The notes: generated from the sequence alone by a model not told the origin. 37,979 bases of DNA from Candidatus Methanoperedens sp. (GCA_027460465.1 JAPZAV010000172.1:1-37979), one strand, 5' to 3'; numbered from the stretch's first letter, positions 6,660 to 19,845 are shown. Numbers and translations: made by a program.

Positions 6660-8132
6660 ATGGTTCAGGACACCGAGGAAAACAGGAAAAAATGCATTTG
6701 CCAGGATTGCCCAAGTTATCCCCACGACTGCAGAGGAGAGATTCTGTATTGTGGCAGGGATAAGAGCGCCTGTGAAATCAAAGCAAGAGGATGTAATTGC
6801 ATTAACTGCAGGGTTTATTATGAAAATAAACTGCAAGGATTATTTTTTTGTGATAAAGAAGAAGCTGGAATGAGCAATACGCTGATGCGAAAGAAAAGGT
6901 CTTATGAAGATGATTCATTTTATCAAACAATAGTGGATATCAAAGATATGGCAGCCAGAGGGGAAAGCGTGGTATGCGCAATGGGATCCCTGAAAAAACT
7001 CCCTTTTTCTCTTGATGACCTGCATTTTATTCCTGCACAGATAGACAGGATTCCTTTAAATAGAGAAGATGAAGTGAGTACTGAAGTTTGTATCGGACCC
7101 TATGCAAAAAAACCATTAAAAGCCTCTTCTCCGATCATGATTTCAGGGATGAGTTTCGGTGCGGTTTCAAAGAATGTCAGACTGGTGATCTCACAGGTTG
7201 CATCAAAGTTAAAAATTGCTTTCAACTCGGGTGAAGGTGGAGTTTTAGAAGAAGGGATCAAAAATGCAAAGGATTACCTTATTGCCCAGTACGCTACAGG
7301 TCGATTCGGTATCAATGAAAACATATTGAAGCAGGTCGCGGCTGTAGAGATTCGATTTGGGGAGGGAGCTTATCCAGGTAAAGGGAGTTATCTGCCTGCA
7401 AGCAAAGTAACTCCAGAAATTGCGAAGATAAGAGGCTTAAAGAGCGGCGAAGCTGCATATTCTCCGGCCCATCATGTTGATATAACCACCAGGCAAGAAC
7501 TTAAAGAAAAAGTTTCCTGGCTGCGTGATATCACGGATGGTATTCCCATCGGTGCGAAGCTGGGGTGTGGAAATATTGAAAACGATATTGCGGTCCTGGT
7601 TGATGCCGGAGTTGACTTTATCGCTCTTGATGGTTTTGGCGGAGGCACCGGGGCTACGGATTTTTATGTGAGGGAAAACGTGGGCATTCCGATTTTTGCA
7701 GCGCTGCCCCGTGCGTTTAGAGTGCTTTCAGACCTGGGTGCTAAAGATAGGATCTCTCTTATCGGAGGAGGAGGCTTGCGAACCTCCGCTGATTTTGCCA
7801 AATGCCTTGCTCTTGGGGCGGATGCTGTTTACACAGGTACAGCTGCCCTGATCGCAATAAATTGCGAGCAGTACAGGATCTGTTATACCGGCCTGTGCCC
7901 CACAGGTGTGACCACCACCAATCCGCTACTTGTAAAACAGGTCAACATTGAAAGAGGTATTGAAAAACTATCCAATTTTATCAATATATCAACCAGAGAA
8001 ATAGCCAATCTCACCAGGATCGCTGGAAAAGATGATGTTAACAAACTTGACAGCGATGATCTCGTTTCATTGAATAAGGACATGGGGATCATTACTGGTA
8101 CAAGATGGCTGAACGGGGAATATTCAAAATAA
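6660..8132 (+). CDS. Glutamate-synthase-domain FMN protein with N-terminal DUF2769-like domain
   Basis: This 490-residue protein has two parts. Residues 1-75 are Cys-rich (CICQDC, YCGRDKSAC, CNCINC, FFC), resembling DUF2769. From about residue 95 it is a glutamate synthase catalytic (FMN-binding) domain: ISGMSFGAVSKNVR, FNSGEGG, GKGSYLPASKVTPEIA, GAKLGCGNIENDIA, ALDGFGGGTGA and LIGGGGLRTS. The motif CEQYRICYTGLCPTG is the site for the 3Fe-4S cluster. Archaeal GltB-like proteins of this kind make glutamate from 2-oxoglutarate and glutamine (or ammonia) with partner subunits. No amidotransferase or NADPH subunit is encoded nearby, so the real substrate is uncertain. The N-terminal domain replaces the usual ferredoxin-like domain. 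Confidence 0.88.
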   Translation: MVQDTEENRKKCICQDCPSYPHDCRGEILYCGRDKSACEIKARGCNCINCRVYYENKLQGLFFCDKEEAGMSNTLMRKKRSYEDDSFYQTIVDIKDMAARGESVVCAMGSLKKLPFSLDDLHFIPAQIDRIPLNREDEVSTEVCIGPYAKKPLKASSPIMISGMSFGAVSKNVRLVISQVASKLKIAFNSGEGGVLEEGIKNAKDYLIAQYATGRFGINENILKQVAAVEIRFGEGAYPGKGSYLPASKVTPEIAKIRGLKSGEAAYSPAHHVDITTRQELKEKVSWLRDITDGIPIGAKLGCGNIENDIAVLVDAGVDFIALDGFGGGTGATDFYVRENVGIPIFAALPRAFRVLSDLGAKDRISLIGGGGLRTSADFAKCLALGADAVYTGTAALIAINCEQYRICYTGLCPTGVTTTNPLLVKQVNIERGIEKLSNFINISTREIANLTRIAGKDDVNKLDSDDLVSLNKDMGIITGTRWLNGEYSK

Positions 8133-8157
8133 CGAAATCAAGAGGAAGGTTGAATTC

Positions 8158-8427
8158 TTACTTCATTTTCAATGAGTATAATATCATTATCATCCCCAAT
8201 GTGAACAGAGGTATTCTTATCAGGTGAGCATGGACTACTTCCAGACCCAGGATATGCAATACAAATTCTTCGAAAAGATTGGACAGAGCTATGAGAAAAA
8301 AGCCCGTGCACAGGGTTAATAAAACCTTATCTTTATTTTTTCTATATGCTTTGTAACCCAGCCAGCCAACATAAACTCCTATTGCAAATGAAATAAGACT
8401 CAAAAAAGAAAGAAAAATATGCATCAT
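8158..8427 (-). CDS. Small three-helix membrane protein (DUF7521-like)
   Basis: This 89-residue protein has three predicted membrane helices at about residues 3-24, 36-54 and 66-86, with a basic loop YKAYRKNKDK. The pattern is like archaeal DUF7521 proteins that are often paired with a winged-helix gene. Here it overlaps the upstream regulator gene by 4 bp, so the two are co-translated. It may sense a membrane signal and hold or release the regulator. That role is inferred from the pairing only. Confidence 0.72.
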   Translation of the reverse strand: MMHIFLSFLSLISFAIGVYVGWLGYKAYRKNKDKVLLTLCTGFFLIALSNLFEEFVLHILGLEVVHAHLIRIPLFTLGMIMILYSLKMK

Positions 8428-8765
8428 ATTGTTTCACTGAGTTTTTTCCATATGTCTCTCAATTTCTCACTCTCATCCAACATAAAGTGTACTTTGATAT
8501 TTTCTGCGTCTATTGTGAGAATTATCTTATTAAACTTTGCACGATATATTTTTAAATGATGCCCTTCCGAACTGAGTACCATTTTATTTATTTTAATAAG
8601 CCCCTCATTTTCAAGATAACTCAAGATCCTGTATGTGGTAGATAGAGGTATATTCAATGTGCTGCTGAGCTCGTTGGCTGACTTTTCAGATTCGATGAGT
8701 GAAAGGAGAATCTTTTTACTGTTTTCATTAGTCAATATCGAAATAATAGTTTGATCTATGGACAT
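8424..8765 (-). CDS. Winged helix-turn-helix regulator
   Basis: This 113-residue protein has an ArsR/TrmB-like winged helix at about residues 5-75. The recognition region is SANELSSTLNIPLSTTYRI followed by LENEGLI. A short C-terminal part follows with no obvious metal-binding cysteines. It is cotranscribed with the small membrane protein and divergent from the cupredoxin/multiheme operon, with about 190 bp between. The simplest reading is that it controls that operon and itself. The ligand is unknown. Confidence 0.8.
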   Translation of the reverse strand: MSIDQTIISILTNENSKKILLSLIESEKSANELSSTLNIPLSTTYRILSYLENEGLIKINKMVLSSEGHHLKIYRAKFNKIILTIDAENIKVHFMLDESEKLRDIWKKLSETI

Positions 8766-8955
8766 TAGGATAAACTCTTTTTCTTTGCTGGAGTGAACCC
8801 CTTTTTGTAGATAATCAGTTAAGCAACTATATTTAAACTTAACGCCATTTCAAAAATCCTCATTCTCATGGATTGAGAATTATGTATAAACTATATCTAA
8901 AGATACAAACCAAATGATTGATCGTGATCAAAACAATTTGGATAGGATGGAAAGA
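8766..8955. promoter_or_regulatory. Divergent promoter region of regulator and redox operon
   Basis: The region is A/T rich. TATATTTAAA (about 8828-8837) can serve as a TATA element on either strand, and its minus-strand form is TTTAAATATA. A second A/T block (ATGTATAAACTATATC, about 8882-8897) lies nearer the cupredoxin start. The winged-helix protein would be expected to bind here. No strong palindrome was seen. Confidence 0.4.
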
Positions 8956-9402
8956 ATGAAAAACGGTAAACTCATTCTTTTGATTATAATTTTTGTTTTG
9001 CTAACAAGTTTATCCCTCACACTTGCACAACCAGAAGCGCCCAGAGAAAGAGAGATCACGATCGAAGCATATAAGTTCGCCTATAATCCCGAGATCATCG
9101 AGGTTAACCAGGGGGACAAAGTAACGATCAGGTTCATAAGCACAGATGTGCACCACGGCTTATACATCGATGGCTATGAGCTCAAGACAGATGCCATACC
9201 CGGACATGAGGGGGAAATCACATTCGTAGCCAACAAGACTGGAAAATTTACAATGCGCTGCTCTGTAACCTGCGGAGCTTTCCATCCGTACATGATCAGT
9301 TATCTGAAGGTAAAGCCTGATTACAGGCTCTTCGGCTCGATTCTTCTCGCACTTATCTTATTCCTGAGTTCAATCGTACTGATGGTCAGGAAGGAAAGAT
9401 GA
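8956..9402 (+). CDS. Membrane-anchored CuA cupredoxin (cytochrome oxidase subunit II-like)
   Basis: From the preferred ATG the protein has 148 residues. A signal/anchor helix (residues 5-24, ending LTLAQ) is followed by a cupredoxin domain (31-120) and a C-terminal membrane helix (125-143). All CuA ligands are present: His66 or His67 in DVHHG, and Cys102, Cys106, His110 and Met113 in CSVTCGAFHPYM. It should therefore carry a binuclear copper centre and pass single electrons outside the membrane. It lacks the N-terminal two-helix hairpin of true oxidase subunit II, and no subunit I is nearby. The start at 8956 has GGATGG five nt upstream and begins the signal peptide cleanly; an in-frame ATG at 8914 is an alternative. 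It overlaps the next gene by 4 bp. Confidence 0.88.
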   Translation: MKNGKLILLIIIFVLLTSLSLTLAQPEAPREREITIEAYKFAYNPEIIEVNQGDKVTIRFISTDVHHGLYIDGYELKTDAIPGHEGEITFVANKTGKFTMRCSVTCGAFHPYMISYLKVKPDYRLFGSILLALILFLSSIVLMVRKER

Positions 9403-10397
9403 TCACAATAGAAGATCTGCACTGGAATGAAATTAAGGAAAATATCTGTGGTCACTGCGGGGCATGCGTGCCCTTTTGCGACTGGGAAAAATGCAAAGGT
9501 AATATCGAGGAGGAGAAGTTCGGCACGTGCAATATATGCTACCTCTTCTGTCCCAGAACCTCTTCAAGTGCTATAAATTATAAAACAGGTGCTGACGCGA
9601 GTTTTTCTATAAAAGCGTATAACAGCGTGAAATCTATTGAAGCTTCAGGGAGCGCACAGGACGGAGCATTTATCACGACGCTGCTGAAATTTCTGCTGAG
9701 AGAGAAAATAATAGATTCGGCAATTCTAACAAAAAAGAATGAAGAATGGAAACCGGTTCCATTCATAGCGACCACAGAAAAAGATATTGAAGATGCGTCC
9801 GGTTCAAAATATGGTATATCTCCTTCTCTTTCACTTTTAAAAGAAGCTGTTGATAAATACGAAAAAATAGCATTTGTTGGGCTTCCATGCCAGATCAGGG
9901 CTTTGCGAAACGTGCAGTTACAGAAAAAGCATAAGCTCAATGCTGAAAAGATCATTCTTGCCATAGGACTGTTTTGCAGGGAGAATTTTTTATTTGAAGG
10001 TCTGAAAGGTTTTGTCGAAAGGGAAGGGGTTCAGATGACAGGAGTGAAAAAATTCGACATAAGTGCAGGAAAATTTAGAATATACTCAGATTCCGAAATC
10101 ATAGAAAAACCTGTGCGTAATCTGGATGAACATGTCTGGCCAGTATGCCATGCCTGTGTGGATTTCACATCAGATTTTTCGGATATATCGGCTGGCTCAG
10201 TAGGGTCGAAAAAAGGGAATACTACTGTGCTCATCAGATCAGAGCTTGGAAACAAATTGTTTGGAAAAATGATGGAGAAGAATCTCATTATCGTTGAAAA
10301 TGAAGTGGACATATCTCAAATAGAGAAACTTGCAAATGATAAAATGAAGAACATTGAAAATCTCTCAGATGATGTCAAAAAAATATTATTATGCTGA
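9399..10397 (+). CDS. FrhB/FdhB-family iron-sulfur flavoprotein
   Basis: This 332-residue protein belongs to the coenzyme F420 hydrogenase/dehydrogenase beta-subunit family. N-terminal clusters are formed by Cys17, Cys20, Cys23 and Cys27 (CGHCGACVPFC) and Cys44, Cys47 and Cys51 (CNICYLFC). The FrhB_C-type region follows with GLPCQIRALR and GLFCREN. Known members pass electrons between F420H2 (or ferredoxin) and Fe-S partners through FAD. No signal peptide is present, so it acts in the cytoplasm. Its place between a CuA protein and a membrane Fe-S protein suggests it feeds or accepts electrons on the inner face. The ATG overlaps the cupredoxin stop by 4 bp. The redox partner is not shown by the sequence. 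Confidence 0.83.
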   Translation: MITIEDLHWNEIKENICGHCGACVPFCDWEKCKGNIEEEKFGTCNICYLFCPRTSSSAINYKTGADASFSIKAYNSVKSIEASGSAQDGAFITTLLKFLLREKIIDSAILTKKNEEWKPVPFIATTEKDIEDASGSKYGISPSLSLLKEAVDKYEKIAFVGLPCQIRALRNVQLQKKHKLNAEKIILAIGLFCRENFLFEGLKGFVEREGVQMTGVKKFDISAGKFRIYSDSEIIEKPVRNLDEHVWPVCHACVDFTSDFSDISAGSVGSKKGNTTVLIRSELGNKLFGKMMEKNLIIVENEVDISQIEKLANDKMKNIENLSDDVKKILLC

Positions 10398-10412
10398 CAG
10401 GAAGGTCAAACC

Positions 10413-11858
10413 ATGAAAGACAAGATACTTGGAATATTTCCTCTGGACTGGAGATATGATATCACCTCATTACCTTATGTTCGCAGTGTACTCAAGAGCA
10501 GATGGGTTCCCTTCCTTATCATAGTATTCAACCTTTTCTTTTTCACAATTATACTGATGGCAGGAGTTGTGGGAGGAGTCTCGGCCGGCAATTATAACTT
10601 CGCAATAATGTTCGTCTGGATACTTTGGTGGGTAATGCTGATGCTCGTATTTGTGCCCTTCTTCTCAAGAATCTGGTGCAGCACATGCCCGCTTCCAGCC
10701 TTTGGAGAATGGATACAGAGGCTGGGTTTCTTAAAAGTAAGAAATAAGCTATTTGGACTCAACAGGAAATGGCCGAAACAATTAAAGAACATGTGGCTTA
10801 TGAATTTCTTATTCCTGGGGACAACATACACAACTGGTTTCCTGACCACCCGTCCAATAGCAACGTTCATTCTTTTGATGGCAATAATCCTGGGCAGCGT
10901 GGTATTGAGTACGGTGTTTGAGAGAAGGAGTTTCTGCTTATATTGCTGTCCGGTGAGCGGTTTCCAGGGTCTGTACTCAAACATTGCCATGACAGAGATA
11001 CGGTGCAAGGATCCCGAGGTATGCAGAAATCACAATGTCTCTACCAGAGCTAAAGCGTTAGGGTGCGACTATCAGCAAAGAGATTGTGTGCGTGGAAATG
11101 AAAATGGCTATGCCTGTCCATGGCTGGAGGTTCCTTTTAATCAAAACAGAAGGAATACCTACTGCGGGATGTGCTTTGAATGCTTCAAGACATGTCCATA
11201 TGATAACATGGCCTTCAACTTAAGGCCGCCAGCTACTGATCTGGTTTTAGATAAAAAGCGCGGTCTTGACGAAGCCTGGAAGGCCTTTATGATGCTTGGA
11301 ATAGCTATATTCTTCTTCCTGATAATGCAGGGTCCTTTTGGCTTCTTAAAGGATTGGGCAAATGCAAAAACCCTTGCAGGCTATCTATCATACATAAGCG
11401 TGCATTCTACCTTCAATCTCCTGATATTTCCCGGCATATTCTTTGTTTTTTCCTATGCTTCCCATGCCCTTGGAAGAACGGAATTGCCTCTCAAGAGGGT
11501 ATTTATCAATTTCTCCTACACGCTCGTGCCTTTAGGGTTAATGGCATGGATAGCTTTTAGCGTGGGCATAATTTTCGCCAACGGTAGCTATCTGATACAT
11601 GTGATCTCTGACCCCTTTGGCTGGGGCTGGAATTTATTAGGAACCGCGAACTTCCCCTGGACGCCCTTTATGACCGGGATGGTACCTTACATGCAGATAG
11701 GCGGGCTGCTGCTTGGTCTTGCACTATCGCTTGACATAGGTTTCAAAATAGCCAGGCAGACCTTCAAGAACAGAGATGAAGCAGTCATGGGATTTTATCC
11801 CATAGCTGCCTTCCTGACCGTTACTACCATGTTTTTGATGTGGCTCTTTACAGGATAG
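10413..11858 (+). CDS. NapH/NosR-like membrane Fe-S protein
   Basis: This 481-residue integral membrane protein has about nine predicted helices. Its cysteine motifs are typical of NapH/NosR/CcoG-type quinol or electron-transfer proteins: WCSTCPLPAFGEW (Cys89, Cys92), FCLYCCP (Cys175, 178, 179) and a ferredoxin motif CGMCFECFKTCP (Cys251, 254, 257, 261). Additional cysteines at 198, 204, 218, 225 and 235 lie between them. The second half has five further helices with a conserved-looking His (VHSTFN) after residue 320. It would carry electrons across or along the membrane between the FrhB-like protein and the external CuA proteins. There is no FMN-binding domain of NosR in front. It sits 15 bp after the previous gene and 15 bp before the next. 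Confidence 0.83.
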   Translation: MKDKILGIFPLDWRYDITSLPYVRSVLKSRWVPFLIIVFNLFFFTIILMAGVVGGVSAGNYNFAIMFVWILWWVMLMLVFVPFFSRIWCSTCPLPAFGEWIQRLGFLKVRNKLFGLNRKWPKQLKNMWLMNFLFLGTTYTTGFLTTRPIATFILLMAIILGSVVLSTVFERRSFCLYCCPVSGFQGLYSNIAMTEIRCKDPEVCRNHNVSTRAKALGCDYQQRDCVRGNENGYACPWLEVPFNQNRRNTYCGMCFECFKTCPYDNMAFNLRPPATDLVLDKKRGLDEAWKAFMMLGIAIFFFLIMQGPFGFLKDWANAKTLAGYLSYISVHSTFNLLIFPGIFFVFSYASHALGRTELPLKRVFINFSYTLVPLGLMAWIAFSVGIIFANGSYLIHVISDPFGWGWNLLGTANFPWTPFMTGMVPYMQIGGLLLGLALSLDIGFKIARQTFKNRDEAVMGFYPIAAFLTVTTMFLMWLFTG

Positions 11859-11873
11859 GGAAGAGGTGAAACA

Positions 11874-12284
11874 ATGCAAAAGAAACAGATCGTGGAAATC
11901 ATTGCAGGGCTAATGATAATCACAGCCACAGCTGGCGCAATTGCAGGAACGTTTCTGTATGAGGACATGTTGAACAATGAACGCAAGACCATTGTGATCC
12001 TGGCTCTGGCTCTGGAGTTTGGCAACTGGAGTCCACCTGAAATAAAGCTGGTGGAGGGAGAACCGGTTCGGTTAAAGATCAGAAATACCGATACAGTGAC
12101 CCATGGCTTTGCCGTCCCGGAGCTTGGAATAGGCATAGATGAACCTGTGGAGATAAAAGCAGGTCATGTAGCCAAAATAGATATCACCCCGACCAAGAAA
12201 GGTACATTCCTTTATGTTTGCACTGTATGGTGCAGCAAGCAGCACCCGAAAATGGTTGGAAGAATAATAATCTCGGAGAAGTGA
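11874..12284 (+). CDS. Second CuA cupredoxin, N-terminally anchored
   Basis: This 136-residue protein has an N-terminal membrane anchor (residues 7-28) and a cupredoxin domain at about 45-134. CuA ligands are all present: His77 in VTHGF, and Cys116, Cys120, His124 and Met127 in CTVWCSKQHPKM. Its CuA loop resembles that of the first cupredoxin of the operon, but overall sequence and membrane topology differ (no C-terminal helix here). It should be an external one-electron carrier, probably placed between the membrane Fe-S protein and the cytochromes encoded directly downstream. A GAGGTG ribosome binding site lies about 6 nt before the ATG. It could also be called a NosZ/CoxB C-terminal-like domain, but no catalytic copper domain is attached. 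Confidence 0.87.
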   Translation: MQKKQIVEIIAGLMIITATAGAIAGTFLYEDMLNNERKTIVILALALEFGNWSPPEIKLVEGEPVRLKIRNTDTVTHGFAVPELGIGIDEPVEIKAGHVAKIDITPTKKGTFLYVCTVWCSKQHPKMVGRIIISEK

Positions 12285-12295
12285 GGATTGATAGT

Positions 12296-13540
12296 ATGAG
12301 TTCAAAAGGAATATTCATATTCAAAGCAATGTTAGGCATATTGGTTTTCTGGGCCACCCTGTCAGCGCAGGCTGCTGCAGAGGAACTTCAGATCAGCTAT
12401 TCCTGTGCCAGCTGTCATGAGGACAGGTATAATGAATGGACGCGCTCAATGCACGCACTGGCAGTCAGCGATCCTATTTTCAGGGCAGCTTATACGAGAG
12501 CGATCATATCCAACCCTGAATACAGGGATTATTGCCTTACCTGCCACTCCCCTACCACAATGAGAACAAAAGACTACAACTTTTCAAAATCCATATCACT
12601 TGAAGGCGTTACATGCATCTTCTGCCATACCGTAGACGGAGTTAATAAAAACAGTTATGTTTTTGGTAAGGTCGACCTGATCAGAGGTCCATACGGCGAC
12701 TCGAAGACTGATGCGCATGCATCAGAATATTCTGATCTGCTCACAAAATCAGAGTTCTGTGCGGGATGCCACGAATTCTCAATGAACGGCGTGCCTATCT
12801 CTGAGACTTACTCAGAATGGAAGGAAGGTCCCTACGCAGCTGAAGGTATACAATGTCAGGACTGTCACATGGAGGCAATACGCGGATTTGCAGCAAAGGA
12901 CGGAGTTGAGCGGGAGAAGGTCTACAGGCATTTCTGGTACGGAGGACATTCAGGGCAATTCCTGGAAAAAGCTTTCAAGATGGAATCTCAGATTCAGCGC
13001 AAAGGAAACAATGCTAAAGTTACGCTCAGCATTACCAATAGCAATGTAGGCCACAAAATCCCAAGCGGTTTCCCATACCGAAAGGTGATCCTGAATTTCA
13101 TGGCAACGAACGGGGAAGGAAAAGAGATATTCGCTGATGAGAGGGTGTATACAAAGACTCTTCATGACCAGTATGGCAATGAGGTGTACGACTTCTGGAA
13201 AGCATCCTCCATAGCTATGGATAATAGAATCAAGCCAAAAGAGACCAGAACAGAGGTGTTCGAGTTCGAGCTGCAGGATGGCACGGATAAACTGGAAATC
13301 CAGGCAACTCTGAACTACCAGCTTGAAGCTGAGGTTGTCTCAATATCAAAGGAAATCATGAACGTTGAAATAGCAAAGATAAAAGAGGCAAAATGGTTGA
13401 ATGAGGCACCGGTCTCAAGTCCAGCCACAAAAGAGATGCCAGCTCCTGGATGGATCGGATTCGTTGTTGCATTGATAGCAGCCGTATTGTTCATCAGAAG
13501 AAAGAAGCCAGAAAAGGGAGAAAGGTCTGATGATATCTAG
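12296..13540 (+). CDS. Pentaheme cytochrome c, membrane-anchored
   Basis: From ATG 12296 the protein has 414 residues. A signal peptide (ending AQAAAEE) precedes five CxxCH heme sites at residues 37-41, 80-84, 107-111, 155-159 and 187-191. The remaining part has the NxGHxxPSGFP-type motif (NVGHKIPSGFPYRKV) found in many multiheme cytochromes, then a beta-rich domain. A C-terminal helix follows (PGWIGFVVALIAAVLF then RRKK). That tail resembles archaeal PGF-CTERM sorting signals or is simply a membrane anchor. The start has GAGGA 9 nt upstream; the frame is open further upstream inside the cupredoxin gene, but that lacks a signal peptide at its start. It overlaps the next cytochrome gene by 11 bp. 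Function: electron transfer on the outer face. Confidence 0.88.
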   Translation: MSSKGIFIFKAMLGILVFWATLSAQAAAEELQISYSCASCHEDRYNEWTRSMHALAVSDPIFRAAYTRAIISNPEYRDYCLTCHSPTTMRTKDYNFSKSISLEGVTCIFCHTVDGVNKNSYVFGKVDLIRGPYGDSKTDAHASEYSDLLTKSEFCAGCHEFSMNGVPISETYSEWKEGPYAAEGIQCQDCHMEAIRGFAAKDGVEREKVYRHFWYGGHSGQFLEKAFKMESQIQRKGNNAKVTLSITNSNVGHKIPSGFPYRKVILNFMATNGEGKEIFADERVYTKTLHDQYGNEVYDFWKASSIAMDNRIKPKETRTEVFEFELQDGTDKLEIQATLNYQLEAEVVSISKEIMNVEIAKIKEAKWLNEAPVSSPATKEMPAPGWIGFVVALIAAVLFIRRKKPEKGERSDDI

Positions 13541-15602
13541 AAGGACATTTTGGGCAATGTTTTTCGTGATAGGAGTAGCGGTTGCTGGCTCGGCGCTGAG
13601 CGGGATGCCGACTTCCACGTTAGGTGAGATCTTTTTCCTGGGTAAGGATTTCTCAGGTGAGGTTGTGAACTCTGTAGGCATTCCTGTGGTTGGAGCAAAG
13701 GTACATCTTGTTCCTGCATCAGCTATCAACATGGCGCCGATCACGGCGAGCGAGATTTATTATCCTCCATACCGTGCGGAATCCTATGATGAACCTCTTG
13801 AAGATGCCATCCGGGTAAAGGGGACGGAATTTCCAAATGCAATTACAGATACTGAGGGCAAGTTCATCATCCCTGAAGTGCCTGATGGGAAGTTCTTTGT
13901 TCATGTGACCCCGGCCGAGAGGGATGCTGAGCACTTGCCCGGAGGAGACAGGAGCAGGATTGCCTATGAGGCCGAATCTCTTCGAGGAACCTCTGTAACC
14001 ATAAAGGTCTCAAGCCGTCCTCCTATTGATGCAATCTATGTGGGCAGCTCAACCTGTCTCAGCTGCCATCCGAAGCTTGAAACCCTGAAGCAAACCGGTC
14101 ACAAGCTATCGTTGACCGTACCCGGAGCTCCAGGGCGGCTGCAGGACCACTCGAAGTACCCGGATTACTTCAAATCGCTTCCGAAGTTCAAGGAAACTGA
14201 CCGTTACACTGACGGTACACGCCTTGAACTGGGAGACTACGATCCTGCGAGGGGGTCAGATAAATTCAAGATAAGGGAATTCAGCGATACCAGGCTGCCA
14301 ATAGATACAGTATATTTCGATGTGTATCTGTGGAAGAGCAGGGGAGACGGGAAATATTATATCACTATTGCAAACAGGCTCAACCCCGGGGATCCAGATA
14401 GCCCTGCGCACATGGAAGTTAAACTGCTGTATGGCGGTGCGGTTCACAGGCAGAGGTTCATCGTCTCTGTTCCGCCCAATCTGGGGGAGCGAAAAGGCTG
14501 GTATGTAGTGCTTCATTTCAACCCGGATGGGAGCGACGAAAGATTGAACAGAGAAAGACGTGTCTGGGAGGATTTCTATTTAAGCCAGTTCTGGGATCCG
14601 GGCAGGGATGGCATATACGGCACTGCAGATGATGTGATCAAAGCGCCGCCGGTGAACAGCCAGACCTTCCAGACCATGTGTGCTGCCTGTCACGTGACCG
14701 GCTGGGAGAGATATATGGATCCTGCCACAGGACAGTACCTGGTGCGAGGCGTAAATGACCCGGGCGGAGAGTTGAATATAGATGACGACCCGGAGATGGA
14801 CGAGATCAATATCGGCTGTGAGAAGTGCCATGGTCCGGGTTCAAAGCATACTGGATCGCCAGGACGCTATATTGTGAATCCCAAGCTTCTTTCATCAGAG
14901 CGGAGCAGTGTAATCTGCGGAAGGTGCCATGATAGGCGGCAGGGACACGGGGGTGAAATTGACGGCATCCAGCCGATCAATGAAAAAGGTGAGTTCATAA
15001 GACCAGGAGAGAGCCGCAACACAATGCTTACAGATTACAGCGATCCAGAAAAAAAGGGACCGCAGCCGAATGTAGATATGTGGCCTGATGATATCAACTC
15101 AAAAAAACCCAACCAGCAGTATTCAGATTTCATAAAGTCGAAGCTCTATAGAAATGACAGACTGCTGGTTGCCTGCACAGACTGCCATAACACTCACGGC
15201 GGAACACCTTACCGCCGCTTGCTCAATAACGACCCGGATGACTCCTCCTCTCCTCTGTGCCAGAAGTGTCATGCTATAGACATCATACCCCACATGGAAA
15301 ACAGGTTCGGTGCCAAAATGAAAGGTCAGCTAACTCGCTGTATAGATTGTCATATGCCAGGAACTGCGATTGACATGCAGGGAGGTAGTTACGGAGGCTT
15401 CATCAAGATCCCTCCATATAACAGCTCGGCAGAAGAGGACAGGAATGTCTACTGGGAAGGCCACATCAACTCGCATACGTTCAAAGTACCTTTCAAGAAT
15501 AATGTAGGTGTCGTGGGGATAGAGCCGGGCAAGGCGATGTTTATTCCCTATGTGAACAAATGCGGAGGCTGTCACTTTGTGTATAAGTTGCCGTATAAAT
15601 GA
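13530..15602 (+). CDS. Octaheme cytochrome c with N-terminal carboxypeptidase-regulatory-like domain
   Basis: This 690-residue exported protein has a signal peptide (about 1-25). A beta-sandwich resembling the carboxypeptidase regulatory domain follows (about 38-165, DFSGEVVNSVGIPVVGAKV and ITDTEGKFIIPEVPDGKF). Eight CxxCH heme sites come next: CLSCH at 176-180, then CAACH, CEKCH, CGRCH, CTDCH, CQKCH, CIDCH and CGGCH near the C-terminus. There is no C-terminal membrane helix, so it is probably periplasmic or at the S-layer. The long heme-free stretch between hemes 1 and 2 (about 200 residues) could form a separate binding domain. It shares the transcript and 11 bp with the pentaheme gene. Reductase activity is possible, but no active-site motif is recognised; electron transfer is the safer call. 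Confidence 0.87.
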   Translation: MISRRTFWAMFFVIGVAVAGSALSGMPTSTLGEIFFLGKDFSGEVVNSVGIPVVGAKVHLVPASAINMAPITASEIYYPPYRAESYDEPLEDAIRVKGTEFPNAITDTEGKFIIPEVPDGKFFVHVTPAERDAEHLPGGDRSRIAYEAESLRGTSVTIKVSSRPPIDAIYVGSSTCLSCHPKLETLKQTGHKLSLTVPGAPGRLQDHSKYPDYFKSLPKFKETDRYTDGTRLELGDYDPARGSDKFKIREFSDTRLPIDTVYFDVYLWKSRGDGKYYITIANRLNPGDPDSPAHMEVKLLYGGAVHRQRFIVSVPPNLGERKGWYVVLHFNPDGSDERLNRERRVWEDFYLSQFWDPGRDGIYGTADDVIKAPPVNSQTFQTMCAACHVTGWERYMDPATGQYLVRGVNDPGGELNIDDDPEMDEINIGCEKCHGPGSKHTGSPGRYIVNPKLLSSERSSVICGRCHDRRQGHGGEIDGIQPINEKGEFIRPGESRNTMLTDYSDPEKKGPQPNVDMWPDDINSKKPNQQYSDFIKSKLYRNDRLLVACTDCHNTHGGTPYRRLLNNDPDDSSSPLCQKCHAIDIIPHMENRFGAKMKGQLTRCIDCHMPGTAIDMQGGSYGGFIKIPPYNSSAEEDRNVYWEGHINSHTFKVPFKNNVGVVGIEPGKAMFIPYVNKCGGCHFVYKLPYK

Positions 15603-15744: not shown

Positions 15745-15851
15745 CAGGAAAAAACATTAAGGCATTACCCGAGGGGTTACAGAAGTGCGATTATTCGAAC
15801 TCAACTGCATAACTGAAGGTACAAATAAAAAGATTAAAAAGGGTGAATATT

Positions 15852-16940
15852 ATGGTCAAAAAAACTGAAGAAAGAAAAGAAGAGAAAGAAGAAAGAAAGG
15901 ACATGTTCAAGACATGGGCTGATAGCTACACAGCAGTTTCAAAAATGTGGGAGGATTCCTACTTAAAGTTATACAGACCATGGATTGAATCCACAGGAGA
16001 GATGTTCGATAAGGCAGCTCAAATCTCAAAGCAAGCTGCACCTGAGCAATACAAGGAGTTCTATGACGAATGGGTGAAAACATATCAGAACACCATTGGT
16101 GATTATTATCCCATCCCGACTCTGAAGTCCAATAAAGAGACGCTTGAGAAACTCCTCACAAGTGCAGAAGAATCGAACGGGATATACAGATCATGGATCG
16201 CCGAGTTAGAGGACAATTCCCAGAAGACGAGGGAAATACTCAAAGGCGAAACAGACCCTGCAAAATACAAAGAGTGCTATGATATGTGGATAAAGTCGTA
16301 TGAAAAGATTTTCGATGAAATTCTGGCACTGCCGACCAGGGAAAATATAAAAGTGATATTTGAAAATTACACAGGGGTACCAGATATCTATTCAGAGACC
16401 TTTGTGCAGATATCAAAACTGTGGAAGAATACATACGCAAAGCTCTACGCTCCGTGGAGAGAGTCCATAGCCAGGCTTTCTGAGAAAGCTGCAGAGATCT
16501 CTAAAGGAGGAGCGGGTCCTGAAGCATATAAAGAATTTCATACCCTGTGGCTGAATACATATCAGGAGACCTTTGGCACCATGTTTGATGTCAGGCATGC
16601 GCAGCCTTCAAAAGAGGTTTTCGAGAATTTCGTGCAAAGTGCGAACATCTATCTGAACTTTTACAAGTCATGGATAGCTGCGCTTGAAACACTGGAAGTC
16701 AATGCCAAAAAGCTATCAAAACAGACAAATGATCCAAAAGCATTTAAAGAATTTTATGATCTATGGGTAAAAACATATGAAAAAGCTTTTGACAGCTTCT
16801 TTGAGGATACGCTCACAGTCAGCCCGCTGAAAGAGACCCTGGAGCCTGTAAAGAATGCAGCCAGGATGTATGCAGACACAATTACCAGGATCTCCAGGCT
16901 GTGGTTGGAATCGTATTCCAGCTCCACAAGCCGGGCTTGA
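15852..16940 (+). CDS. PhaE-repeat (phasin-like) PHA granule protein 1
   Basis: This 362-residue soluble, highly helical protein has no signal peptide. A charged N-terminus (KKTEERKEEKEERKD) is followed by four copies of a motif like YKEFYDEWVKTYQNTIG, starting at residues 67, 139, 226 and 298. The spacing of 72, 87 and 72 residues shows that a unit of about 159 residues was duplicated. The motif also occurs in PhaE, two genes downstream, so this is a PhaE-related repeat protein. It probably binds the PHA granule surface or the synthase. The ATG at 15852 is chosen because of its GGTGA ribosome binding site and because the next gene begins the same way; a GTG at 15843 is in frame. Function is inferred from the operon. 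Confidence 0.8.
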   Translation: MVKKTEERKEEKEERKDMFKTWADSYTAVSKMWEDSYLKLYRPWIESTGEMFDKAAQISKQAAPEQYKEFYDEWVKTYQNTIGDYYPIPTLKSNKETLEKLLTSAEESNGIYRSWIAELEDNSQKTREILKGETDPAKYKECYDMWIKSYEKIFDEILALPTRENIKVIFENYTGVPDIYSETFVQISKLWKNTYAKLYAPWRESIARLSEKAAEISKGGAGPEAYKEFHTLWLNTYQETFGTMFDVRHAQPSKEVFENFVQSANIYLNFYKSWIAALETLEVNAKKLSKQTNDPKAFKEFYDLWVKTYEKAFDSFFEDTLTVSPLKETLEPVKNAARMYADTITRISRLWLESYSSSTSRA

Positions 16941-16979
16941 ATCCGAAAAAATCCAGCATACCTAGAGAGGTGAATTATT

Positions 16980-18035
16980 ATGGCTAAAAAAACTGAAGAA
17001 AGAAAAGAAGTAAGCGAAGAAAAGCAGGACATGTTCAAGACATGGGCTGATAGCTACACAGCAGTTTCAAAAATGTGGGAGGATTCCTACTTAAAGTTAT
17101 ACAAACCATGGATTGAATCCACGGAAGAGATGTTCGAGAAAGCGGCTCAACTCTCAAAGGAATCTTCTCCAAGGCAGTATAAGGAGTTCTATGATGATTG
17201 GGTAAAAACATACCAGAACACCTTTGGAAAATATTACTCGCTCCCGACTCTGAAATCCAATAAAGAAACGCTTGAGAAACTCCTTACAAGTGCAGAAGAA
17301 TCGAACGGTATATACAGATCATGGATCACCGAGTTAGAGGATAATTCCCGGAAGACAAGGGAGATACTCAAGGGCGAGGCAGACCCTGCAAAATACAGAG
17401 AATGCCATGATATGTGGATAAAATCGTATGAAAAAATATTCGATGAAATCATGGTACTGCCTGTCATGGAAAGTACAAAAGAGATATTTGAAAAATACAC
17501 AGGTGTTCCTGATATCTACTTTGGGAGCTTTGTCCAGATGTCAAAACTATGGAAGAATACATACGCAAAGCTGTACGGGCCGTGGAGTGCGTCTATAGCC
17601 AGGCTTTCAGAGAAAATGGCAGAGCTCTCCGCGGGAGGAGCAAGCCCGGAAGCCTATAAGGAATTCTATACAATATGGATGGAAACGTACAAAGAGACCT
17701 ATGAAAAGTATTTCCAGTCTGTTCAGCCATCAAAAGAGGTATTTGAAAGCTTCGTGCATAGCACCAGCATTTATCTGAACATGTACAAGTCCTGGATAAC
17801 AGCACTTGAAAAAATGTCGAAAAAGGCTGAAGAGCTATCAAAAAAGACCACAGACCCGGAGGCTTATAAGGAATTTTATGATCTCTGGGTAAAAATGTAT
17901 GAAAAGGCATTCGAAAGCTTCTTCGAGGACATGCCTGTTATGGGTCCAATGAAAGAGCTCATGGACCCTGTCAAGAACATGGCAAAGATATATACAGACA
18001 CCTTTGCCAGAATGTCCAAGATGTGGATGAAATAG
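16980..18035 (+). CDS. PhaE-repeat (phasin-like) PHA granule protein 2
   Basis: This 351-residue paralogue of the preceding protein shares its start (MAKKTEERKE) and a stretch of near identity, MFKTWADSYTAVSKMWEDSY. It has the same four-fold repeat of YKEFYDxWVKTY-type motifs. The C-terminal halves differ more, ending in FARMSKMWMK. A GAGAGGTGA ribosome binding site precedes the ATG, almost the same as that of the first copy, so the whole gene start was duplicated. It is 39 bp from the previous gene and 28 bp from phaE. It probably acts as a second granule-associated or synthase-modulating protein. No PhaC-type catalytic motif is present. Confidence 0.8.
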   Translation: MAKKTEERKEVSEEKQDMFKTWADSYTAVSKMWEDSYLKLYKPWIESTEEMFEKAAQLSKESSPRQYKEFYDDWVKTYQNTFGKYYSLPTLKSNKETLEKLLTSAEESNGIYRSWITELEDNSRKTREILKGEADPAKYRECHDMWIKSYEKIFDEIMVLPVMESTKEIFEKYTGVPDIYFGSFVQMSKLWKNTYAKLYGPWSASIARLSEKMAELSAGGASPEAYKEFYTIWMETYKETYEKYFQSVQPSKEVFESFVHSTSIYLNMYKSWITALEKMSKKAEELSKKTTDPEAYKEFYDLWVKMYEKAFESFFEDMPVMGPMKELMDPVKNMAKIYTDTFARMSKMWMK

Positions 18036-18063
18036 GTTCATACCTAAAAAGCAGGGTTTGAGT

Positions 18064-18636
18064 ATGGAAAAATCCAATTTTGAATCCACACAGGAAATCT
18101 TTGACATGTGGTTGAAGACCTACGAAGCCACTTTTGGCAGGATAGTTGAAATGCCTGCCATGGGTCCAACAAGGGAGAGATCCGAAAAAATGATGAAGGG
18201 TTTTTCCCTTTTCGCTGAACTCTCTTCAACCTGGATGGATTCCAATGTGAATTTCCAGAGCGTGTTCATGGAAGCAATGCGCAGAGTGCGAGAAAAGACT
18301 GCAAACGAGATGGAGGGAGAGATCAATCCTGAGAAATATAAAGAATTTTACAGGATCTGGATCGAGACATACAGCGAGACATTCAAGGAATTCCTGAAAT
18401 CCGGGCATTTTGCTTCTGACATGGGGAAATTCATGTCATATTTCATGGAATTTCAGAAGTTCAACCGGGAAATGCTCGAGGAGAACTATCTGAAACCCAT
18501 GAATCTTCCCACGAAGACTGAGATCGATGAGATAAACAAAGAGCTGTATTCTCTGAAGAAAAAGGTTAAGGAGTTAGACCGCGTAATAAAAGAGCTATCT
18601 TTGATGAACCCATCTAACAAGGATGAAATTCTTTAG
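18064..18636 (+). CDS. phaE: Class III PHA synthase subunit PhaE
   Basis: This 190-residue protein contains two copies of the helical motif (IFDMWLKTYEATFG and YKEFYRIWIETYSETF). It has the typical PhaE C-terminus, NLPTKTEIDEINKELYSLKK followed by a coiled-coil stretch. PhaE forms the class III synthase with PhaC, encoded 45 bp downstream, and is needed for its activity. It is shorter than many bacterial PhaE proteins (about 300-360 residues). The ATG at 18064 has GCAGGG at a good distance; a TTG at 18058 is in frame. Of the three related proteins in the operon, this is the only one with the coiled-coil tail. Confidence 0.85.
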   Translation: MEKSNFESTQEIFDMWLKTYEATFGRIVEMPAMGPTRERSEKMMKGFSLFAELSSTWMDSNVNFQSVFMEAMRRVREKTANEMEGEINPEKYKEFYRIWIETYSETFKEFLKSGHFASDMGKFMSYFMEFQKFNREMLEENYLKPMNLPTKTEIDEINKELYSLKKKVKELDRVIKELSLMNPSNKDEIL

Positions 18637-18681
18637 GTTCATCTAACTGAGAAAATGATGCAAGCTTTGTAAGGAGACTAT

Positions 18682-19845
18682 ATGAAGGAAGCTAACTTAA
18701 TTGATTTTGAAAAATTCAAAAGAGGGATGGAACTATTCCTGGAACCACCTGATTTTTCAGTGGGAACAACGCCTTCCGAGATCATCTTTACCGAAGATAA
18801 GATGAAACTTATCCATTATATCCCGGCCGTTGAAAAACCATATGCAGTTCCAGTACTTGTGGTGTATGCACTTGTGAATAGATACTACATCCTGGATCTT
18901 CAGCCCGATAAAAGCGTAATAAAGAAGCTTTTGGATGAGGGTTTTGATGTCTACATCATTGATTGGGGATATCCTTCAGGTACTGATAGATACCTTACGA
19001 TCGACGACTATGTGAATGGTTATATAAACAATGCTGTGGATAAGATAAAACAGAGGTCAGGATTAGATACGATCACGCTCTTTGGCGTTTGTCAGGGAGG
19101 TACTTTTTCTGTGATGTACGCAGCACTGCACCCTGAAAAGATAAAGAACCTCGTCACCCTGGTGTCACCTGTGAACTTTGATACAGATAAAGGGCTTCTT
19201 CATATCTGGGCAAGGAGCCTGGATGTGGACAAGATCGTGGACTATTATGGAATAGTCCCTGGAGATTTCCTGAACGCAGGATTCCTTCTGACCGATCCGT
19301 TCAGGCTCATGATCGATAAATATGTGGGTCTGTTTGAGAAGATCGAGTGCGAAACAGATGATGGACAATGCGAGCTCAGAAATGAAGAAACGGTCAAGAA
19401 CTTCCTCAGAATGGAGAAATGGATATTCGACAGTCCTGATCAGGCAGGTGAAACCTTCAGGCAGTTCTTCAAAGACTGCTATCAGAAGAACCTCCTCATC
19501 AAAAACAAAATGGTGATCGGTAAAACGACGGTTGATCTGAAAAAGATATCCATGCCTCTGCTTAATGTGATGGCAGAGTTCGATCATCTGGTTCCCAACG
19601 AGGCAAGTAAGCCCCTGAACGATGCAGTATCAAGTTCTGATAAAGAGATGCTGGTTTTTCCAACAGGGCACATTGGTATCTTCGTGGGCTCCAGATCTCA
19701 AAAAGATGTCTGTCCCAGGATTTCCGAGTGGCTGAAGCCCAGGTCTATCCTGAACGGGGAAGGGGAAAAAAGGCCTATTCAGACCGGAAAAAAGAGATCA
19801 GAAAGAAAACGAAACAGTCGAACATCAAGAGTGAATAAGAAATGA
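18682..19845 (+). CDS. phaC: Class III polyhydroxyalkanoate synthase PhaC
   Basis: This 387-residue alpha/beta hydrolase-fold enzyme polymerises (R)-3-hydroxyacyl-CoA into PHA. The lipase-like box is GVCQGG, with Cys137 as the nucleophile. The other catalytic residues are Asp301 in AEFDHLVP and His330 in PTGHIGIF. The DWGYPSG and CQGGTFSVMYAALHPEKI regions are typical of the family. Length fits class III or IV synthases, and the PhaE gene upstream makes it class III. The last 40 residues are a very basic tail (KKRSERKRNSRTSRVNKK) not usual for PhaC; it might bind DNA or granule surfaces. The stop overlaps the next gene by 4 bp. Confidence 0.94.
   Translation: MKEANLIDFEKFKRGMELFLEPPDFSVGTTPSEIIFTEDKMKLIHYIPAVEKPYAVPVLVVYALVNRYYILDLQPDKSVIKKLLDEGFDVYIIDWGYPSGTDRYLTIDDYVNGYINNAVDKIKQRSGLDTITLFGVCQGGTFSVMYAALHPEKIKNLVTLVSPVNFDTDKGLLHIWARSLDVDKIVDYYGIVPGDFLNAGFLLTDPFRLMIDKYVGLFEKIECETDDGQCELRNEETVKNFLRMEKWIFDSPDQAGETFRQFFKDCYQKNLLIKNKMVIGKTTVDLKKISMPLLNVMAEFDHLVPNEASKPLNDAVSSSDKEMLVFPTGHIGIFVGSRSQKDVCPRISEWLKPRSILNGEGEKRPIQTGKKRSERKRNSRTSRVNKK

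Follow-up and report, generated by a model that had tools for sequence, protein, structure and literature searches.

The six-gene operon at positions 8956-15602 (+ strand) of the window, meaning the whole 37,979-nucleotide stretch of Candidatus Methanoperedens sp. DNA analysed here (GCA_027460465.1, JAPZAV010000172.1:1-37979), is best explained, with somewhat better than even confidence, as the electron-delivery module of the noncanonical nitrate reductase (Nar) re-coupled to F420H2 on the inside and to an octaheme cytochrome on the outside. The association of the CuA1-NapH-CuA2 core with Nar is already known, and what is new is the module with an FrhB protein and an octaheme cytochrome instead of the reductase. 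This rewired version is represented by two genomes, the window's own (G000) and that of a second family member (G006).

The gene content proposed in the first-pass annotation was confirmed in full by open reading frames and domain matches. In order, the tightly packed genes encode CuA1 (8956-9402; an HCOIIa homologue with a signal peptide, a CuA domain and a C-terminal transmembrane segment), an FrhB/FpoF-type Fe-S flavoprotein (9399-10397; PF04422 and PF04432), the NapH-like polytopic Fe-S protein that forms the core of the module (10413-11858; PF12801 and a weak TIGR02163 napH match), CuA2 (11874-12284; an HCOIIb homologue matching PF00116, with an N-terminal transmembrane anchor), the pentaheme c-type cytochrome MHC5 (12296-13540; C-terminal transmembrane segment), and the octaheme c-type cytochrome MHC8 (13530-15602; signal peptide), the five and eight CxxCH motifs of the two cytochromes giving 13 hemes. 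The CuA1 and FrhB genes overlap, as do those of MHC5 and MHC8, the other intergenic gaps measure 11-15 bp, and a 240-bp gap follows MHC8, the last gene; this spacing suggests that all six are cotranscribed. Two divergent genes on the - strand accompany the operon: a winged-helix TrmB/ArsR-type gene (8424-8765; PF01978; 68% identity in G006), which is a candidate regulator, and a gene for a DUF7521 small membrane protein (8158-8427; PF24365, E 1e-13; 60% identity in G006). On the other side lie tandem PhaE-like genes and a PhaC gene (15843-19845), with many more PhaE-like copies in the same genome; synteny around these PHA genes revealed no empty site for the cassette, and scans of viral contigs with NapH and FrhB queries returned no matches.

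Both small cupredoxins exceed the PF00116 COX2 cut-off of 22 bits (38 bits for CuA1, 25 bits for CuA2), and Thermus CuA structures align across the whole CuA1 domain in a profile search (E 2e-15). The complete ligand set claimed earlier for each was borne out: two Cys, two His and a Met (H67, C102, C106, H110 and M113 in CuA1; H77, C116, C120, H124 and M127 in CuA2) are invariant in eight species, and copper binding is predicted for both proteins. They are the sole COX2-type matches in the window's genome, and PF00116, present in 8 of the 34 family genomes, always occurs there as two genes and always within a CuA1-NapH-CuA2 module.

Among 33 other family genomes, seven encode a close NapH orthologue (74-80% identity). 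In six of these Methanoperedens genomes (G001-G004, G014 and G030; Ca. M. nitroreducens and BLZ2 are among them), the CuA1-NapH-CuA2 genes come immediately 3' of a type II DMSO-reductase-family operon, which encodes an alpha subunit of about 1154 aa (TIGR03479, E 2e-96), a beta subunit (TIGR03478), a chaperone (TIGR03482) and a heme-b gamma subunit (TIGR03477). At one such locus, L039, the alpha subunit has a Tat-signal match, and moaA and moeA come afterwards. In 2015 Arshad et al. described a cluster, both conserved and transcribed, of NarG, NarH, NarJ, Orf7, HCO II, a C-terminally extended NapH and a further HCO II, and proposed an unusual nitrate-reducing complex (PMC4683180), for which Berger et al. 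in 2017 used the name "noncanonical" (PMC5690323). The window has CuA1, the extended NapH and CuA2 in the identical order, two HCO-II (CuA) proteins flanking NapH, with 74-76% (NapH), 63-68% (CuA1) and 54-57% (CuA2) identity to the Nar-linked Methanoperedens proteins; its core is homologous to the delivery part of that complex and probably works alike. It differs from noncanonical Nar in that NarG, NarH, NarJ and Orf7 are absent from both operon and window, and in having FrhB placed after CuA1, ahead of NapH, and MHC8 as the last gene; neither FrhB nor MHC8 was found in the six Nar-linked Methanoperedens loci. MHC5 follows CuA2 in four of the six (G002, G004, G014 and G030), is lacking from the corresponding place in G003, and falls beyond the G001 contig, which ends about 200 bp past CuA2; since the cluster tabulated in PMC4683180 closes with its second HCO II, MHC5 seems to be a further gene linked to it.

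In a contig scan, the NapH core was also recovered at 49-58% identity from Nitrospinota, Planctomycetota, Spirochaetes, Undinarchaeales, Brocadiaceae and Woesearchaeota MAGs, some of whose contigs may be wrongly binned. The gene for a reductase alpha subunit (about 58-61% identity) lies upstream of the core in L074, L075, L076, L077, L078, L081 and L082, so that reductase linkage outside Methanoperedens includes Planctomycetota, Spirochaetes and Undinarchaeales MAGs, and the upstream sequence of L072, L073, L079, L080 and L085 is too short to judge linkage, the gamma subunit being retained in L079 all the same. A different partner is found in L083, from a Woesearchaeota bin: no reductase occurs in roughly 5.6 kb upstream of the core, and CuA2 forms a fusion protein with a copper nitrite reductase (7532-8971; TIGR02376, 300.8 bits, cut-off 296.3) beside CuA1-NapH. 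The joining of CuA1-NapH-CuA2 to NirK indicates that the core is modular. The Planctomycetota contig L077 carries a second NapH-like gene (7962-9365; 40% identity) directly 3' of CuA2. The absence of a catalytic subunit, on which the first-pass annotation had laid stress, thus stands for the window operon and its neighbours and fails for related loci, a linked reductase being present in six of the seven Methanoperedens orthologous loci and in most bacterial ones; the novelty seen in a module without a catalytic partner falls with it, and the view that CuA domains otherwise sit only in oxidases or N2O reductase is contradicted by the same reductase-linked loci.

The core order CuA1-NapH-CuA2 is kept among relatives, and the full six-gene version, with FrhB between CuA1 and NapH and a terminal MHC8, occurs only in the window genome and G006. 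These share an eight-gene unit, the operon together with the winged-helix and DUF7521 genes, and the genes beyond it differ, which makes misassembly less likely and favours a transferable cassette. In G006, for example, MHC8 is followed by the gene of a DUF11 protein and by several more multiheme cytochrome genes, with as many as 11 hemes (L034:1-4726; L114:10690-12303), genes absent there in the window. The six genes are intact, without stops, at about 58-80% identity, and all are under purifying selection: dN/dS is 0.03-0.18 for five of them and pN is 0.165 against a pS of 0.753 for FrhB, for which dS is saturated and gives no ratio, all of these dN/dS values being rough, with synonymous sites near saturation in all six genes. 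Selection on six genes within differing flanks points to a maintained cassette rather than decay. The NapH proteins of the window and G006 form one clade (100/100), whose branching order relative to the Nar-linked Methanoperedens clades is not settled by the tree. With a reductase at the locus in almost every outgroup, the simpler history would be that NarGHJ-Orf7 were lost and that FrhB and MHC8 were gained.

The window FrhB has both the N- and C-terminal domains and the cysteine-rich N-terminus of the FrhB/FpoF/Fsr-N family, its PDB matches are FrhB and Fsr structures, and the family Cys motifs are kept in the window and G006. It departs from that family in scoring under every NCBIfam equivalog cut-off for FrhB/FpoF and in being partnered with NapH and CuA proteins, and it forms a lineage separate from the seven other FrhB-family proteins of its genome. 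Its nearest relatives outside G006 in the sampled phylum are about 40% identical, with no NapH or CuA gene within their short flanks. F420H2 is proposed as its electron input, and given the distance to those relatives the substrate could differ from F420.

The NapH-like protein resembles NapH/NosR-type proteins in the 4Fe-4S ferredoxin-type motif that follows its first membrane segments (C251-x2-C254-x2-C257-x3-C261) and in its paired CxxCP/CxxxCP motifs. It differs from them in having about five further C-terminal helices, in scoring far under the TIGR02163 cut-off, and in lacking a NapG in its operon. It has 9-10 hydrophobic segments (about ten by a simple Kyte-Doolittle scan), and nine transmembrane helices were reported for a homologue (PMC4683180). 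The loop preceding the ferredoxin-type motif contains, between the conserved residues C204 and C225, a 13-residue insertion with an additional Cys (11034-11072, about residues 208-220), which is confined to the FrhB-linked pair and is lacking in the Nar- and NirK-linked homologues of the compared set. With segments counted from the N-terminus and NapH taken as the model, this Fe-S loop should be cytoplasmic, the side on which FrhB is expected, and FrhB is hypothesized to dock on NapH; the predicted NapH structure (pLDDT 64, no PDB fold match) gives such docking no structural support. At L042:3313-8989 and L050:6802-9594, PCYCGC-motif genes accompany a distantly related NapH-like paralogue (about 30% identity), which at L042 also neighbours CcmF-like and DsbD-like genes; this suggests a role in cytochrome c maturation.

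Several readings of the donor side may be weighed against these features. A stricter form of the re-coupling, which we put forward tentatively and hold to be less probable than its opposite, is a direct F420H2-to-outside export complex that bypasses the menaquinone pool, electrons passing from a docked FrhB through the NapH Fe-S domain and the two CuA proteins to extracellular cytochromes; such a complex would possibly join F420H2 and menaquinol electrons. A somewhat more doubtful reading has the module still serving as a menaquinol dehydrogenase, the role it has in the Nar complex, with FrhB as a side input or redox balancer and MHC8 as a new outlet. Methanoperedens uses menaquinone (PMC7082337), NapH homologues in ANME have been proposed as quinol oxidants (PMC9012536), and the core does without FrhB at every Nar- or NirK-linked locus, so that menaquinol may remain the donor. 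Against this reading stand the place of FrhB within the operon, the CuA1-FrhB-NapH order and purifying selection in both genomes, and the NapH Fe-S loop, which differs in exactly these two.

On the acceptor side, MHC5 has five hemes with exactly five conserved free His, and MHC8 has eight hemes, eleven conserved free His and no CxxCK; because the conserved free His suffice, every heme of both could be bis-His ligated, and the two could thus serve as electron carriers. The predicted MHC5 structure was poor (pLDDT 42) and was set aside. Full-length relatives of MHC8 were found only in G006 among the 34 family genomes, and among 393 phylum genomes only a partial relative was detected. The heme region of MHC8 resembles two PDB entries, 6qvm (E 8e-9) and 6i5b (E 3e-5). 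The latter entry is OcwA, as cited in PMC6703420, and the former (681 aa) is probably OmhA, its length being equal to that of the gene listed in PMC7829351; OmhA of Carboxydothermus ferrireducens and OcwA of Thermincola potens are described as cell-surface reductases. The likeness is limited to the middle heme region and is not full-length, and MHC8 differs in having 8 hemes, against 11 in OmhA and 9 in OcwA, and an extra N-terminal domain. It is conceivable, and in our estimate unlikely, that MHC8 is itself a terminal reductase acting on a soluble substrate such as nitrite or NO, which would give the operon a hidden catalytic subunit. In favour of this, the structure of OcwA shows kinship with multiheme enzymes that act in nitrogen and sulfur cycling (PMC6703420), high-potential acceptors are a suitable match for CuA sites, and in L083 the partner of the core is NirK. 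What weighs against such a role is the His supply for all-bis-His ligation, the lack of CxxCK, and an NCBIfam scan in which MHC8 drew no NrfA, HAO or OTR model and a weak NrfH match alone.

A reductase encoded elsewhere in the genome as the recipient of the electrons is very improbable. The obvious candidate is an unlinked type II Mo reductase on C42 (L057:6320-11500), which has alpha, beta and gamma subunits and a chaperone, belongs to another subfamily, and was the only match, a distant one, of the L039 alpha query in the window's genome. In this assembly the reading frame of its alpha subunit is broken close to the end, and its distribution across the family disfavours it as a partner: genomes with strong TIGR03479 matches like C42 (G015-G017, G024 and G027-G029) lack CuA proteins, and G006, which is 99% complete and carries the same cassette, has no type II Mo reductase match, so that its cassette cannot depend on one. 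Other recipients were rejected, a heme-copper oxidase because the genome has no full-length COX1, only a 135-aa COX1-like fragment at C45, and NosZ because it has no CuA protein beyond the two small ones of the window. G006 encodes a cbb3-like oxidase fusion, a NorB/CcoN-like protein and two small cytochromes (L112:5970-8690; L113:5735-8486); cbb3 enzymes are not known to use CuA, and as G000 has no counterpart, these proteins were set aside as partners. Decay of the operon after loss of a nitrate reductase, as the absence of NarGHJ-Orf7 beside remaining delivery genes might be taken to mean, is hardly credible; within its limits the selection test refutes it, with dN/dS well below 1 where computable in two species, and FrhB and MHC8 are additional genes, not remnants.

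Under the favoured reading of a re-coupled Nar delivery module, the core of the relatives (CuA1, NapH, CuA2 and MHC5) is presumed to carry electrons across the membrane, or out of it, to an extracytoplasmic Mo enzyme, and the missing reductase together with the flanking FrhB and MHC8 suggests that in the two rewired genomes this wiring has been re-plugged to export electrons elsewhere. F420H2 (and/or menaquinol) would reduce the FAD/Fe-S centres of FrhB, which would pass electrons to the cytoplasmic Fe-S domain of NapH and thence to CuA1/CuA2, MHC5 and MHC8, from which they may leave outward to an external acceptor. The electron conduit envisaged in the first-pass annotation is thereby upheld as an interpretation, its electron flow being deduced from gene content and homology. 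CuA-NapH-CuA is thus seen as an exchangeable delivery module, occurring with nitrate reductase, with copper nitrite reductase, and with FrhB and an octaheme cytochrome, which extends what CuA centres may serve for and provides a candidate route by which F420 electrons may reach the outside in some Methanoperedens, with no nitrate reductase involved.
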